This document shows positions 12,510-17,749 of a DNA stretch of 64,000 bases, piece by piece; the stretch's first letter is position 1; every line of letters starts with the position of its first letter. Under the pieces are notes generated by a model. That model worked only from the letters and a program-made list of their open reading frames with translations. It was not told where the DNA came from and made no database searches. The DNA is from Chitinophagaceae bacterium. Its GTDB lineage: Bacteria; Bacteroidota; Bacteroidia; Chitinophagales; Chitinophagaceae. A program made the translations under genes and the position numbers. The stretch covers positions 1 through 64,000 of the forward strand of contig JAGXRG010000047.1 in NCBI GenBank assembly GCA_018335935.1. The letters are read 5' to 3'.

Positions 12510-12656
12510 GTAATGATAGATATTGGCTAAAATAAGGAAATTACGCTTCTTTTTTATTGATTATTCAAACTTGACTCAATTCGGCTATATTTTTAAATGG
12601 TTATAAATTACATTCGCCGTTTAAATTATTCAATTTTAGAGATTAAAAACAGAACT

Positions 12657-14513
12657 GTGGTAGACATTATTCAATTATTGCCCGATAATATTGCCAATCA
12701 GATTGCAGCCGGTGAAGTGATTCAACGACCTTCGAGTGCAGTAAAAGAATTATTAGAAAATGCTGTAGATGCAGGAGCCACACAAATTAAATTGATTGTT
12801 GCAGATGCTGGCAAAAGTTTAATTCAGGTGATTGATAATGGAAAAGGAATGAGTGAAACCGATGCAAGAATGGCTTTTGAAAGACATGCCACCAGTAAAA
12901 TTAGACAAATTGAAGATTTGTTCAGAATTAACACCATGGGTTTTAGAGGCGAAGCCTTAGCAAGCATTGCTGCAGTTGCACAAGTTGAAATTAAAACCAA
13001 AAGAGAAGTTGATAGCTTAGGTACTTATATTGAAATTGAAAATAGTACAGTTCAAAAACAAGAGCCCTGTGCTTTTGAAAATGGAACCAGCATCTCTATG
13101 AAAAATTTGTTTTTTAATGTTCCTGCACGAAGGAATTTTTTAAAAAGCAATACCGTAGAAATGAAACATATTATTGAGGAGTTTATAAGAGTGGCCATGG
13201 CTTTTCCTCATATCTTTTTTTCATTAACCAGTAATGGGCAACAAGTTTTTCATTTAGAGTCTGGTAATCTAAAACAAAGGGTTTTACAAGTTTTAGGTAA
13301 TCAGTATAATGCTAAATTGGTACCAGTAAAGGAACATACAGATTATTTAAATGTGTATGGCTTTATAGGAAAACCAGATACAGCTAAGAAAACCAGAGGC
13401 GATCAATACTTTTTTGTGAACAATCGATTTATTAAAAGTGCTTATTTAAATCATGCTGTAAATTCTGCTTATGATACACTTTTACCAAAAGATAGTTTTC
13501 CGAGTTATGTATTGTTTATAGATTTAGATCCCGAACAAATTGATATCAATGTTCATCCTACCAAACAAGAAATAAAATTTGAAGATGAGAAAATTGTCTA
13601 TGCATTTGTTCAATCTGCAGTAAAATATGCACTAGCACAGTTTAGTATTGCACCAAGTTTAGATTTTACATTAAATGCCAACATTCAAAGTCTTGATGCA
13701 GTAACAAAACCTTTTACAACAGAGAAAAAAGAAGTTACAAGTACTTCAAACATTTATCAAACATTCACTAAAAAAGATCAGGCACATTTTATAGATGCCA
13801 CACCAAAAAGCGAATTAAAACATTGGAAAGATTTTTTTGTGCCTTTAAGTGCTAACATACATAAAGAAGAAGCAGAAACTATTACAACTGATGAATTAAT
13901 TGGTGTTACTGCAAATAAATTTAAACATGCCAGCTTCGAAACTGATCATTCTGTGTATTTGCAATTGCATAATACTTATATCATTTCATCAACTTCAAAA
14001 GGATTTATTTTAATTAATCAACAACTGGCACACGAAAGAATTTTATACGAACGCTATAGTAAAGCAGTAAATAATAAACAAGCAGCAACACAAAAAAGTT
14101 TATTTCCAATAACCTTAGAGCTATCATCAAGTGATGCAGAGATGTTGCATGAAATGTTGGATGACGTAAATGCATTAGGATATCATATTGAGTTTTTAGA
14201 AAATGAAAAATTTGTAATACAAGGCACACCAGCCGATGTTTTACAAGGAAATGAAATGCATAGTATTGAATTGTTGTTAGAACAATACAAACATTTTAAT
14301 AGTGAAGTAAATTTTAGCAGAAGAGAAAAATTGATTCGTTGTTTAACCAGACAAAATGCTATTAAAGCTGGAAGAATGCTGTCTCAAAAAGAAATTCAAT
14401 CATTGGTAGAGGACTTATTTAAATGTCAGATGCCCAATATTACAGCAAATGGAAATCCAACTTTTGTTGAGTTTAAAGAAGATTATATTGAAAAGATGTT
14501 TACCAAATGGTAA
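12657..14513 (+). CDS. mutL: DNA mismatch repair protein MutL
   Basis: This is the matchmaker ATPase of mismatch repair. The frame is open from ATG 12597, but family alignment (VDIIQLLPDNIANQIAAGEV) and a TATATTTT box at 12586-12593, too close to that ATG, favour the GTG at 12657. The GHKL ATPase motifs are KELLENAVDAGA (motif I), DNGKGM (motif II), RGEALASIAAVA and NGTSI. The middle domain has VHPTKQEIKF. The C-terminal domain lacks the endonuclease motif DQHA(X)2E(X)4E: the corresponding site reads NQQLAHERILYE (from about residue 454), and the CPHGR-type motif reads TANGN. Its last 22 codons and stop are repeated at 16344-16412. Confidence 0.95.
   Translation: MVDIIQLLPDNIANQIAAGEVIQRPSSAVKELLENAVDAGATQIKLIVADAGKSLIQVIDNGKGMSETDARMAFERHATSKIRQIEDLFRINTMGFRGEALASIAAVAQVEIKTKREVDSLGTYIEIENSTVQKQEPCAFENGTSISMKNLFFNVPARRNFLKSNTVEMKHIIEEFIRVAMAFPHIFFSLTSNGQQVFHLESGNLKQRVLQVLGNQYNAKLVPVKEHTDYLNVYGFIGKPDTAKKTRGDQYFFVNNRFIKSAYLNHAVNSAYDTLLPKDSFPSYVLFIDLDPEQIDINVHPTKQEIKFEDEKIVYAFVQSAVKYALAQFSIAPSLDFTLNANIQSLDAVTKPFTTEKKEVTSTSNIYQTFTKKDQAHFIDATPKSELKHWKDFFVPLSANIHKEEAETITTDELIGVTANKFKHASFETDHSVYLQLHNTYIISSTSKGFILINQQLAHERILYERYSKAVNNKQAATQKSLFPITLELSSSDAEMLHEMLDDVNALGYHIEFLENEKFVIQGTPADVLQGNEMHSIELLLEQYKHFNSEVNFSRREKLIRCLTRQNAIKAGRMLSQKEIQSLVEDLFKCQMPNITANGNPTFVEFKEDYIEKMFTKW
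14445..14513 (+). repeat. Direct repeat, mutL-attached copy (69 bases)
   Basis: The final 22 codons and stop of mutL, encoding a segment from ANGNPTFVEF to EKMFTKW, match 16344-16412 at 66 of 69 positions. The three differences (gca/gct, gtt/gta, aag/aaa) are all third-codon, synonymous changes. The two copies are in direct orientation and bracket about 1.83 kb. Confidence 0.97.
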
Positions 14514-14576
14514 TGATAATTAGTAATAAGGCTACTTTATAATTATTACAGACATATTACTATTAGTACCTTAATT

Positions 14577-15101
14577 TTATTTTACCATATCTATCATACT
14601 CATTATTAATAAATCAATATTGTTTTTGGCTATTAAACTATCATGCACTTTTATAAAAGAAAATTTCTTTGAACCACTCGGTATAGTAAAAGCAGAAAAT
14701 TCAAAATCTGTTATTACATTTTTTTCTTCATTATACTTTATTTTATATTTCAAACCTTGAACGTATGGGTCTGCATTTTTGAATATATTATTAAATGCAT
14801 CTGAAGTAAGATTTTGTAAATCTGATCCAGAAAATTTTTTAACAAGTTTGGCTGCAAACTCTTCTCTAAGTTCTGGTAGTTGAGCTTTACTAATAACAGT
14901 AAATCCCGCTTTTTGTAAAAATAAACCCGCTACAACTTCTCCATATTGCTCTTTTTCATTGATAGCTTCTACATAAACAGGAAGTTCTTTTTTTAGATTA
15001 TAAATATCTTGTTTTAAATAAAATGGTTTTGTAAATGAAACAAATAGTGTTACAATAACTGGTATTAGTACAAGCCATTGAGATTTATTAATAATTTTCA
15101 T
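14577..15101 (-). CDS. Unknown protein with N-terminal signal anchor, island gene
   Basis: I do not recognise this 174-residue protein. It begins with a basic stretch and a hydrophobic segment (QWLVLIPVIVTLFVSF), so it is exported or anchored. The rest is a mixed alpha/beta domain with many Lys and Glu, including a helical segment QYGEVVAGLFLQKAG, LREEFAAKLVKKF, and a beta-like pattern KYKIKYNEEKNVITDFEFSAF. It ends in LIMSMIDMVK. There are no Cys residues in the mature part. It lies inside the mutL-repeat-bounded segment, 84 bases downstream of the 15186-15743 gene on the same strand, so the two may be co-transcribed. Confidence 0.7.
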   Translation of the reverse strand: MKIINKSQWLVLIPVIVTLFVSFTKPFYLKQDIYNLKKELPVYVEAINEKEQYGEVVAGLFLQKAGFTVISKAQLPELREEFAAKLVKKFSGSDLQNLTSDAFNNIFKNADPYVQGLKYKIKYNEEKNVITDFEFSAFTIPSGSKKFSFIKVHDSLIAKNNIDLLIMSMIDMVK

Positions 15102-15185
15102 AGTAGTTTTTTAACTAACAGCTATGGTAAGATTATATCTAATAAAAGCTAATTTATAATTTTTATATTAAAACTAGTTTACAAA

Positions 15186-15743
15186 TTAATTAAATTCACA
15201 ATCTAAAAATAAAGCTGTAACAAGTGCCATACAGGCAAACCACATTTCACCAGCATTTGGTTCTGTTGATAACAGAAAATTTAATGTGCAGATACTCGAT
15301 AAAATCCATAACAAAGAATTGCAATCATTACTACTAGAGAACAAAATTATTTTATTATCGATTAAATATTTTACCTCTGAATCAAACCGTTCTTTATTCA
15401 AAAAAATATCTGAATAATCTTTTTGTAGTTTTAATTGTAAATCATCTAAATATTTTTGTTTTTCTTTAAATTCATTAAAATTTTCATATCCTAATTTTCT
15501 AATTACTTCCATATAATCTTGTTTTGAAGCTTGTTGAAGCTTAAGTTTATTTAGCATCTCTTTCGATACATTATTTTTTAGTTTATTAATTAAATTAATT
15601 TTTTCCTTCATAAGCAAAATAAAATCAGCGTTTTTTGAAAGAGGAGTTAAGTTTCTTTCCATATTAATCTTAATTGGATTTGCTACGGTACTATTAAATA
15701 TTAGTACAAACAAGAATACTAGCGATGTTAATAATTTTTTCAT
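15186..15743 (-). CDS. Unknown exported protein with helical propeptide and four-Cys hydrophobic C-terminus, island gene
   Basis: The protein has 185 residues. A signal peptide (MKKLLTSLVFLFVLIFNSTVA) is followed by a charged helical region of about 110 residues with LINKLKNNVSKEMLNKLKL and FNEFKEKQKYLDDLQ patterns. The last about 45 residues change character: hydrophobic, with four Cys (DCNSLLWILSSIC, then WFACM and LDCEFN). A leader, helical spacer and compact Cys-containing tail resembles Bacteroidota proteins annotated as fulvocin C-related bacteriocins, but I cannot confirm that family. It is divergent from the XRE regulator, with a 207-base intergenic region rich in dyads. Confidence 0.65.
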   Translation of the reverse strand: MKKLLTSLVFLFVLIFNSTVANPIKINMERNLTPLSKNADFILLMKEKINLINKLKNNVSKEMLNKLKLQQASKQDYMEVIRKLGYENFNEFKEKQKYLDDLQLKLQKDYSDIFLNKERFDSEVKYLIDNKIILFSSSNDCNSLLWILSSICTLNFLLSTEPNAGEMWFACMALVTALFLDCEFN

Positions 15744-15850
15744 GATGATTTTGTGTTAATTGTCTGGTAGATTTAATAATAATTTTCTAGAAATTTTTGA
15801 AAGTAATAGTTCTTTTTAATTAATCATAGGCAATTACTTTAAGGGTATAC

Positions 15851-15870
15851 AAATTTTCAATTGAAAATTT
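15851..15870. promoter_or_regulatory. Perfect 20-base palindrome between the divergent island genes
   Basis: AAATTTTCAATTGAAAATTT is a perfect dyad, 108 bases before the start of the minus-strand exported-protein gene and 80 bases before the XRE gene. It may be an operator or a hairpin. There is no gene overlap. Confidence 0.4.
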
Positions 15871-15889
15871 ATAACTGGTGACTTTTTCT

Positions 15890-15925
15890 ATCTAATTAGT
15901 TGATAATTCTATCAAATTACTAGAT
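15890..15925. promoter_or_regulatory. Extended dyad, likely operator of the XRE regulator
   Basis: This 36-base region has outer arms ATCTA/TAGAT and inner arms TTGATA/TATCAA around an ATTC centre. Thirteen of the sixteen outer positions in each arm match their partner. It lies 25 bases upstream of the XRE gene ATG, where a promoter would be expected, so autoregulation is the simplest reading. Confidence 0.5.
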
Positions 15926-15950
15926 ATTTACAGTATTTAAAAAAAAGTTT

Positions 15951-16319
15951 ATGTTACACGAAAAACTTAAAGAACTGAGAAAACTAAAGGGCTTAAGTCA
16001 GGAAGAAGTTGCTAAGGCATTGCATGTTCAACAAAATACTTATTGTGGTTGGGAAACTGGTAAACACCAAATTAGCACAGATAAAATATCCTCAATCTGT
16101 GAGTTGTTCAATATTCAACCTAACGAATTATTCACCAATTCAATAACTCAAACATTTAATGAAAAAGTTCAAAACGGCTATATACATAATGTAGAAAATT
16201 TACACACTGAGGCTAATGAAACAATTGCTATTATTAAACAACAAAATGAACTTAATCAACATACACTTGATTTACTTCGTCATCAAATGGATGCAATCTG
16301 TGATTTGCTAAAAAAATAA
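15951..16319 (+). CDS. XRE-family transcriptional regulator with C-terminal helical segment
   Basis: The 122-residue protein has an N-terminal HTH_3 domain at residues 1-60: KLKELRKLKGLSQEEVAKAL, VQQNTYCGWETGKHQIS and ICELFNIQPNELF. Residues 75-122 form a predicted coiled coil rich in Asn, Gln and Glu (ETIAIIKQQNELNQHTL) and may mediate dimerisation. Such regulators often control phage-like or toxin/bacteriocin genes. Here it is divergent from the two unknown exported genes and is preceded by a strong dyad at 15890-15925. It lies inside the segment bounded by the mutL 3'-end repeats. Confidence 0.88.
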   Translation: MLHEKLKELRKLKGLSQEEVAKALHVQQNTYCGWETGKHQISTDKISSICELFNIQPNELFTNSITQTFNEKVQNGYIHNVENLHTEANETIAIIKQQNELNQHTLDLLRHQMDAICDLLKK

Positions 16320-16327
16320 ATTTTAAA

Positions 16328-16347
16328 TAGCTTTCAAAAAAAAGCTA
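16328..16347. repeat. Hairpin at the island right boundary
   Basis: TAGCTTT pairs with AAAGCTA around a CAAAAA loop. The right arm runs into the first codons of the distal mutL repeat, so the hairpin sits exactly on the junction. No T-run follows on the plus strand, so it is not a classical terminator for the XRE gene. Confidence 0.45.
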
Positions 16348-16412
16348 ATGGAAATCCAACTTTTGTAGAGTTTAAAGAAGATTATATTGAAAAAATGTTT
16401 ACCAAATGGTAA
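16344..16412 (+). pseudogene. Detached second copy of the mutL 3' end (22 codons plus stop)
   Basis: This fragment encodes the same last 22 residues as MutL and the same stop codon, but has no upstream coding sequence and is not translated as part of mutL. It differs from the copy in mutL only at three synonymous positions. It lies 32 bases upstream of the murA start. It is either the original chromosomal end of mutL, displaced by the insertion, or a duplicated tail. Confidence 0.93.
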
Positions 16413-16444
16413 ACTATAAATAATTTAAAAAAAAGAATGATATC

Positions 16445-17749
16445 ATGGCAAGTTTTGAAGTTATAGGAGGCAATAAATTAAATGGAACTATAATTCCACA
16501 AGGAGCAAAGAATGAAGCTTTACAAATAATTAGTGCAGTTTTATTAAGTGCTGAGGAAATTATTATTGAAAATATTCCAAACATTATTGATGTAAATCTT
16601 TTGATTGATTTGTTGAAAGAAATGGGAGTTAAAGTAAAACAAATCAATGACGATATTTATAGTTTTATTGCAGATGATATTGATATAGATTATTTAGCTA
16701 GTCCAACTTTTAGAAACAAAGGAGGTATGTTAAGAGGCTCTGTAATGCTTGCTGGTCCTTTATTAGCACGTTTTAAAAAAGCTTATATACCTAAGCCAGG
16801 AGGTGATAAAATTGGCAGAAGAAGATTGGATACGCACATTATTGGTTTTGAAAAACTTGGTGCAGCATTTAATTACGATGATAATTTACACGTGTTCACA
16901 TTAAAAGCTTCTCAGCTAAAAGGGGCTTTTATGTTGTTAGATGAACCCTCGGTTACTGGTACAGCAAACATTTTAATGGCTTCTGTTTTAGCTGAAGGAA
17001 AAACTACAATTTATAATGCAGCTTGCGAGCCCTATTTACAACAACTCTGTAAAATGTTGGTGGCAATGGGTGCAAAAATTTTTGGTATTGGAAGCAATAT
17101 GTTGGTGATTGAAGGAGTTGAAAAACTTAATGGAACAACTCATAGAATTTTACCTGATATGATTGAAGTAGGTAGTTTTATTGGGCTTGCAGCTATGACA
17201 CAAAGCAACCTTACTATTCAGGGTGCAGGTGTTGAACATTTAGGAATTATTCCAGAAAAATTTAGACAACTTGGTATTCATTTAAAAATAGATGGAGATA
17301 ATATTATTATCCCAGAACAAGAGTTTTATGAAATTGAAACTTTCTTAGATGGAAGTATTTTAACCATGTCAGATCATCCATGGCCAGGTTTTACTCCAGA
17401 TTTATTAAGTATTGTTTTAGTGGTTGCCACGCAAGCAAAAGGTAGTATTCTTATTCATCAAAAAATGTTTGAGAGTAGATTATTCTTTGTAGATAAATTA
17501 ATTGATATGGGTGCACAAATCATTCTTTGCGATCCACACAGAGCAACAGTTATTGGTTTAGGAAGAAGAAATAAACTTCGTGGAATAACAATGAGTAGTC
17601 CTGATATTAGAGCAGGTCAAGCATTATTAATTGCTGCATTAAGTGCAGAAGGTAAAAGCACTATTCAAAATATTGAACAAATAGATAGAGGTTATCAATT
17701 TATTGATCAACGCTTAAATGCACTAGGAGCGAGTATTACTAGAAAATAA
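16445..17749 (+). CDS. murA: UDP-N-acetylglucosamine 1-carboxyvinyltransferase
   Basis: This enzyme transfers enolpyruvate to UDP-GlcNAc, the first committed step of peptidoglycan synthesis. The 434 residues span the whole family. Landmarks are GTIIPQGAKNEALQI (with the conserved Lys22-Asn23 pair equivalent), GGMLRGSVMLAGPLLARF, PKPGGDKIGRRRLDTH, and PEKFRQLGI. The catalytic-loop Cys of E. coli MurA (Cys115, GGCTIG) is Asp here (Asp121, GGDKIG). This substitution gives intrinsic fosfomycin resistance in other bacteria that carry it. The end is 1 base from the convergent GH5 gene stop. Promoter elements may lie in the mutL remnant upstream. Confidence 0.96.
   Translation: MASFEVIGGNKLNGTIIPQGAKNEALQIISAVLLSAEEIIIENIPNIIDVNLLIDLLKEMGVKVKQINDDIYSFIADDIDIDYLASPTFRNKGGMLRGSVMLAGPLLARFKKAYIPKPGGDKIGRRRLDTHIIGFEKLGAAFNYDDNLHVFTLKASQLKGAFMLLDEPSVTGTANILMASVLAEGKTTIYNAACEPYLQQLCKMLVAMGAKIFGIGSNMLVIEGVEKLNGTTHRILPDMIEVGSFIGLAAMTQSNLTIQGAGVEHLGIIPEKFRQLGIHLKIDGDNIIIPEQEFYEIETFLDGSILTMSDHPWPGFTPDLLSIVLVVATQAKGSILIHQKMFESRLFFVDKLIDMGAQIILCDPHRATVIGLGRRNKLRGITMSSPDIRAGQALLIAALSAEGKSTIQNIEQIDRGYQFIDQRLNALGASITRK

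Follow-up and report, generated by a model that had tools for sequence, protein, structure and literature searches.

How did a second 3′ end of mutL come to lie directly upstream of murA in a genome of the Chitinophagaceae (G000; contig JAGXRG010000047.1), with a regulator and two predicted exported proteins encoded between the two ends? Originally, this arrangement was predicted to be a type of integration site or cassette not yet described in Bacteroidota. The locus was analysed within a window of 64,000 nucleotides (i.e. the whole stretch of DNA studied) and compared with genomes of the same genus, family and order and with phages, plasmids and viral contigs.

The mutL 3′ end is present twice

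The mutL gene (12660–14513, forward strand) is intact and encodes 617 amino acids when read from VDIIQLL (Pfam DNA_mis_repair, 1.5e-39; MutL_C, 2.3e-28); a longer reading from an ATG at 12597 is possible from the open reading frame list. A murA-like gene of the EPSP synthase family (16445–17749, forward strand; 434 amino acids; Pfam EPSP_synthase, 1.6e-60) lies downstream. A repeat search of the window detected a direct repeat of 70 nt with 96% identity (14444–14513 and 16343–16412) which, as the only direct repeat of at least 36 nt reported in these 64 kb, is not a chance match. Copy 1 (14445–14513, forward strand) consists of the final 22 codons of mutL and its TAA stop. Copy 2 (16344–16412, forward strand) is a detached, untranslated mutL 3′ end that terminates 32 bases before the murA ATG (16445). 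The copies match at 66 of 69 bases, with a longest common exact run of 26 nt, confirming the position and identity originally given for this repeat. Three codons differ between copies 1 and 2 (i.e. GCA/GCT, GTT/GTA and AAG/AAA) and each difference is silent, again as predicted. The GCT difference is at the edge of the repeat and overlaps an inverted repeat (TAGCTTTcaaaaaAAAGCTA; 16328–16347). This first difference may be part of the insert rather than of the mutL end, so that the secure homology comprises 66 nt (16347–16412 in copy 2) with two silent differences. Copy 2 is preceded by the stop codon of an XRE gene and then ILNSFQKKANGNP; it has no in-frame start codon and hence is not a gene at present. 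The end of copy 2 (16397–16414; GTTTACCAAATGGTAAAC) resembles a minus-strand terminator, one such structure being found and 0.4 expected.

The homology extends precisely to the stop codon; the DNA beyond it is unrelated between the copies (p = 0.79) though the copies themselves are 96% alike. Upstream of both copies, DNA similarity was no greater than that of shuffles (p = 0.28–0.40). A tblastn match that ran into the C-terminus of the XRE protein had pointed to homology reaching upstream of the repeat, and this candidate was rejected as similarity at the DNA level was not above shuffles. Within 483 kb sampled from this genome, including the window, no other repeats were found that enclose DNA on the scale of kilobases and duplicate the 3′ end of a gene.

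mutL and murA are adjacent in a relative

The two copies bracket 1,830 bp of DNA (14514–16343) that are missing between mutL and murA in G002, a genome of the same genus in which the mutL stop is followed after 62 bp by the murA ATG. The comparison of mutL–murA intervals that had been proposed as a check thus yielded a direct mutL-to-murA junction and, given this empty state within the genus, an insertion between the two genes is well supported. The insert has a GC content of 24.8% as compared to 31.1% for the window, and no tRNA or Rfam element was found as an integration target. The window MutL is 77–79% identical to MutL of G002 and G003, and the MurA-like protein is 81–84% identical to MurA of the genus. 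In G001 and G003, mutL is followed by a gene reading as a 2-hydroxyacid dehydrogenase and murA is preceded by an HMG-CoA-lyase-like gene, these gene identities being our own reading of the sequences. The separated mutL and murA have the same neighbours on each side in both genomes (L033, L034, L038 and L039). At least one further disruption of the mutL–murA junction has therefore occurred in the genus (i.e. in G001 and G003). As G000 is the outlier of the four genus genomes by protein identity, it is most simply supposed that the mutL–murA adjacency is ancestral and that the cassette was gained in the lineage of G000.

A second mutL, 65% identical, was observed on a 3,423-bp contig of the G000 assembly (C68; L040), and this contig is probably foreign to the bin; the genome record has an estimated contamination of 5.6%. 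Both the contamination and the mutL fragment on the 3.4-kb contig would fit an artefact of assembly or binning, whereby the mutL loci of two strains were joined in the metagenome assembly. At 26 nt, the longest exact match between the copies is, however, too short for collapse at usual k-mer lengths, the junction of the cargo with copy 2 has no shared sequence for joining, and a paralogous pair of the exported proteins is encoded on another contig of the same genome. An artefact is considered very unlikely.

The insert encodes a regulator and two predicted exported proteins

Within the insert, open reading frames and family scans revealed one HTH protein and two orphans only, and no recombinase, in agreement with the original description of its content. 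The XRE/Cro-C1 type HTH regulator (15951–16319, forward strand; 122 amino acids; HTH_3, 9.6e-14) matches PHROG_8 at 9.6e-18, and its top NCBIfam match, to the RstR repressor family, scores 46 bits, under the cut-off of 80. The minus strand encodes a predicted exported protein of 174 amino acids (14577–15101) and its partner of 185 amino acids (15186–15743), the latter with a C-terminal twin CX10C motif. Neither protein has a significant match in Pfam, NCBIfam, PHROG or PADLOC, and AlphaFold models generated without an alignment were of low confidence (pLDDT 58 and 44). Apart from a pair in the same genome, no relatives of either protein were found in the 296 family genomes searched. No relatives of the 185-aa protein were detected in 395 class genomes, genome contigs, viral contigs, plasmids or phages, and at the DNA level the whole insert was unmatched in plasmids and phages.

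The divergent intergenic region of 207 bp that separates the 185-aa and XRE genes contains a perfect 20-bp palindrome (AAATTTTCAATTGAAAATTT; 15851–15870) and a second inverted repeat (TTGATA-N4-TATCAA; 15900–15915). A perfect palindrome with a 10-bp arm and no loop was reached in 0 of 1,000 shuffles (0.014 with loops of up to 6), and neither element recurred in 483 kb of the genome. Both are likely operators. From the layout, the XRE protein is probably an autorepressor that also represses the exported pair through the palindromes between them. Downstream of the XRE gene, the inverted repeat TAGCTTTCAAAAAAAAGCTA (16328–16347, forward strand) overlaps the left edge of copy 2.

A paralogous pair is present at a second locus

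Paralogues of the exported pair were found in the same gene order on contig C34 of G000 (L064, 9340–10453), with E-values of 2.9e-13 for the 185-aa protein and 3.8e-8. The two pairs are diverged, being about 27% identical, and the 185-type proteins of both end in the twin CX10C motif. The C34 pair is flanked by a glutaminyl-cyclase gene and a DUF1569 gene. These flanking genes are adjacent without the pair in G001 and G003, indicating that the exported pair was gained at two places. Neither a duplicated gene end nor an adjoining XRE gene was observed for the C34 pair, and upstream sequences common to the two insertions were not above shuffles (p = 0.89). As the C34 site lacks a duplicated gene end, the mutL repeat belongs to one event and not to the mode of insertion of the pair, and this finding speaks against the new cassette type that had been proposed. 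It is highly doubtful that the locus represents a small class of non-autonomous elements that would enter the mutL 3′ end by a recombinase acting in trans, carry a replacement mutL end and deliver a regulated exported pair also elsewhere in the genome. The orphan exported pair, with two insertion loci in a single genome, may merit more attention than the repeat.

Is the mutL 3′ end an integration site?

Second mutL ends were sought with a degenerate pattern that represents the C-terminal motif of mutL; genomes with a mutL end lacking the motif are uninformative in this search. The motif was matched in 117 of 396 family genomes and 70 of 398 order genomes, and two mutL matches were obtained in G000 only in either sample. 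Two further candidates from the order (i.e. G067 and G307) were rejected as their second matches were unrelated sequence with three mismatches. No second mutL end was found near mutL in about 20 relatives for which about 1.3 to 9 kb downstream were examined, and the motif was absent from IMG/VR contigs, phages and plasmids. The cargo was likewise missing from every other genome, phage, plasmid and viral contig sampled. The undescribed integration site of the original prediction, with other cargo between the same repeats in other genomes, thus found no counterpart in these samples, and a recurrent att site at the mutL end was rejected.

The main rival explanation, considered unlikely, is a remnant or non-autonomous tyrosine-recombinase island that would have entered the mutL 3′ end and supplied a replacement end, with its integrase lost or acting in trans. 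The 5′ portion of the repeat (AATGGAAATCCAACTTTTGT) would serve as the core of such an island. Elements of this kind yield a block of identity from inside a gene to its stop codon with silent differences only, and identity blocks of up to about 250 bp with replacement sequence are known for integrase islands (PMC10111431). In keeping with islands of the icd/e14 type, identity extends here over 66–69 nt to the TAA, the mutL ORF is intact and an uninterrupted site is present in G002. The XRE protein resembles phage repressors, both by its PHROG_8 match and by its sub-threshold RstR match, and five tyrosine recombinases are encoded in G000, all outside the insert. The insert itself, however, contains no integrase, and use of the site was confined to G000, with no second mutL end in the other family or order genomes, phages, plasmids or IMG/VR. 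The C34 pair was, moreover, inserted without a duplicated end. A recombinase-linked att core had been suggested as a further check; beyond the repeat itself, G000 yielded matches to the 20-nt identical core with three mismatches only and never within 2 mismatches, the reversed control giving one match. The locus does not provide evidence of a new integration system.

Origin of the two mutL ends

The silent differences had been taken to imply protein-level selection on both copies. No non-silent difference was indeed present, but the implication was overstated. Random substitutions in the repeat would be silent in about 21% of cases. For a copy 2 free of constraint ever since a simple duplication, the chance of finding silent differences only is 0.04 for three differences or 0.12 for two, and one of the three is at the edge of the repeat, inside a hairpin. 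The all-silent pattern is suggestive, not decisive, evidence for selection on both copies. The halt of homology at the stop codon is a stronger argument, as two mutL alleles with different downstream DNA explain it without coincidence; homology to the stop codon with unrelated flanks is as expected when such alleles recombine. Because both copies stop exactly at the stop codon, have unrelated flanks and show no non-silent difference, two mutL ends from diverged lineages appear to be a better reading of the sequences than copying of one end.

Copying would make a second lineage unnecessary, as the last 66–69 bp of the genome's own mutL could have been copied past the insert by a template switch in repair, or duplicated and then split by insertion. 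The AAG/AAA codon is AGA in the relatives; AAA may therefore predate AAG, which would then be an ordinary silent substitution in the functional gene, and the all-silent outcome would still have the above probability of 0.04–0.12. Under copying, however, an end exactly at the stop codon would be a coincidence, the flanks are unrelated despite copies that are 96% alike, and a free copy would have acquired no non-silent change at all. Copying is thus distinctly unlikely.

Residues found only in G000 within the genus are present in both copies. These read ANGNPTFVEFKEDYIEKMFTKW, as compared to ATGNPTF(I/M)EFKEDYLDRMFTKW for G002 and G003 and to VTGNPTFIEFKEDYLDRMFTKW for G001; likewise, VEFKEDYIEKM stands against (I/M)EFKEDYLDRM. 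These common residues point to a second mutL end derived from a near relative or from the lineage of G000 itself.

A proposed single recombination event

The best explanation, to which we would give an even chance, is a single recombination, of the Campbell type or assisted by homology, with a molecule on which a related mutL end was joined to the cargo. In the ancestor, mutL would have been closely trailed by murA. The incoming molecule would have contained about 66 bp of mutL 3′ end from a sister lineage, the XRE regulator and the divergent operon of two exported proteins, with the G000-specific residues in both copies pointing to a near relative as donor. This molecule may have recombined into the mutL 3′ end either by a Campbell-type single crossover with a circle or by a homologous crossover in mutL and an illegitimate joint on the far side. 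The product would be a mutL completed by the incoming end, then the cargo and then the host's own last 66 bp before murA. We infer a circular or homology-assisted route that involved general recombination rather than a dedicated recombinase.

An insertion with two mutL ends, unrelated flanks and no reuse in the sample was observed. As for a homology-assisted one-off event, there is homology at a gene end, unrelated DNA beyond it and no recombinase in the insert; all two or three differences are silent and the occurrence is single in the sampled family and order. In conjugation experiments with E. coli, a circle with a gene end produced, by single crossover, a partial gene duplication around inserted DNA (PMC3240628). 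In Vibrio T6SS clusters, 3′ ends are displaced behind new cargo, for which homology-facilitated illegitimate recombination is the proposed origin (PMC5361080). The classical form of this process usually deletes host DNA (PMC3240628), and no deletion of host DNA was seen at the insertion, which counts against that form. Also counting against the proposed recombination, divergence of mutL from G002 and G003 exhibited no step along the gene marking an imported segment, and the anatomy fits equally an integrase that replaces the gene end. A length of 66 bp is also short for RecA exchange, which counts against the homologous route.

Comparison with known systems

The locus is a clean example of how a conserved gene can gain accessory genes at its rear and stay unharmed, and the scar at the mutL end suggests a meeting of two lineages. 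As for e14 and phage 21 in icd, which use a tyrosine integrase, a duplicated gene 3′ end surrounds the insert, the differences are silent and the target gene is functional. Unlike these elements, the insert lacks integrase and excision functions, is only 1.8 kb in length and occupies a site that was found occupied nowhere else in the family and order samples. Insertion at mutL is shared with SpyCIM1, a phage-like chromosomal island of Streptococcus pyogenes whose site is the first 16 bases (i.e. the 5′ end) of mutL and which excises and silences the gene (PMC4689407, PMC4129442), whereas the site here is the mutL 3′ end and mutL is intact. As compared to the cases of homology-facilitated illegitimate recombination and single-crossover duplication (PMC3240628; PMC5361080), the present one is natural, consists of one example with a presumed mechanism and shows no host deletion. 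It resembles them in having cargo beside a conserved gene, a piece of that gene on the far side and no dedicated recombinase.
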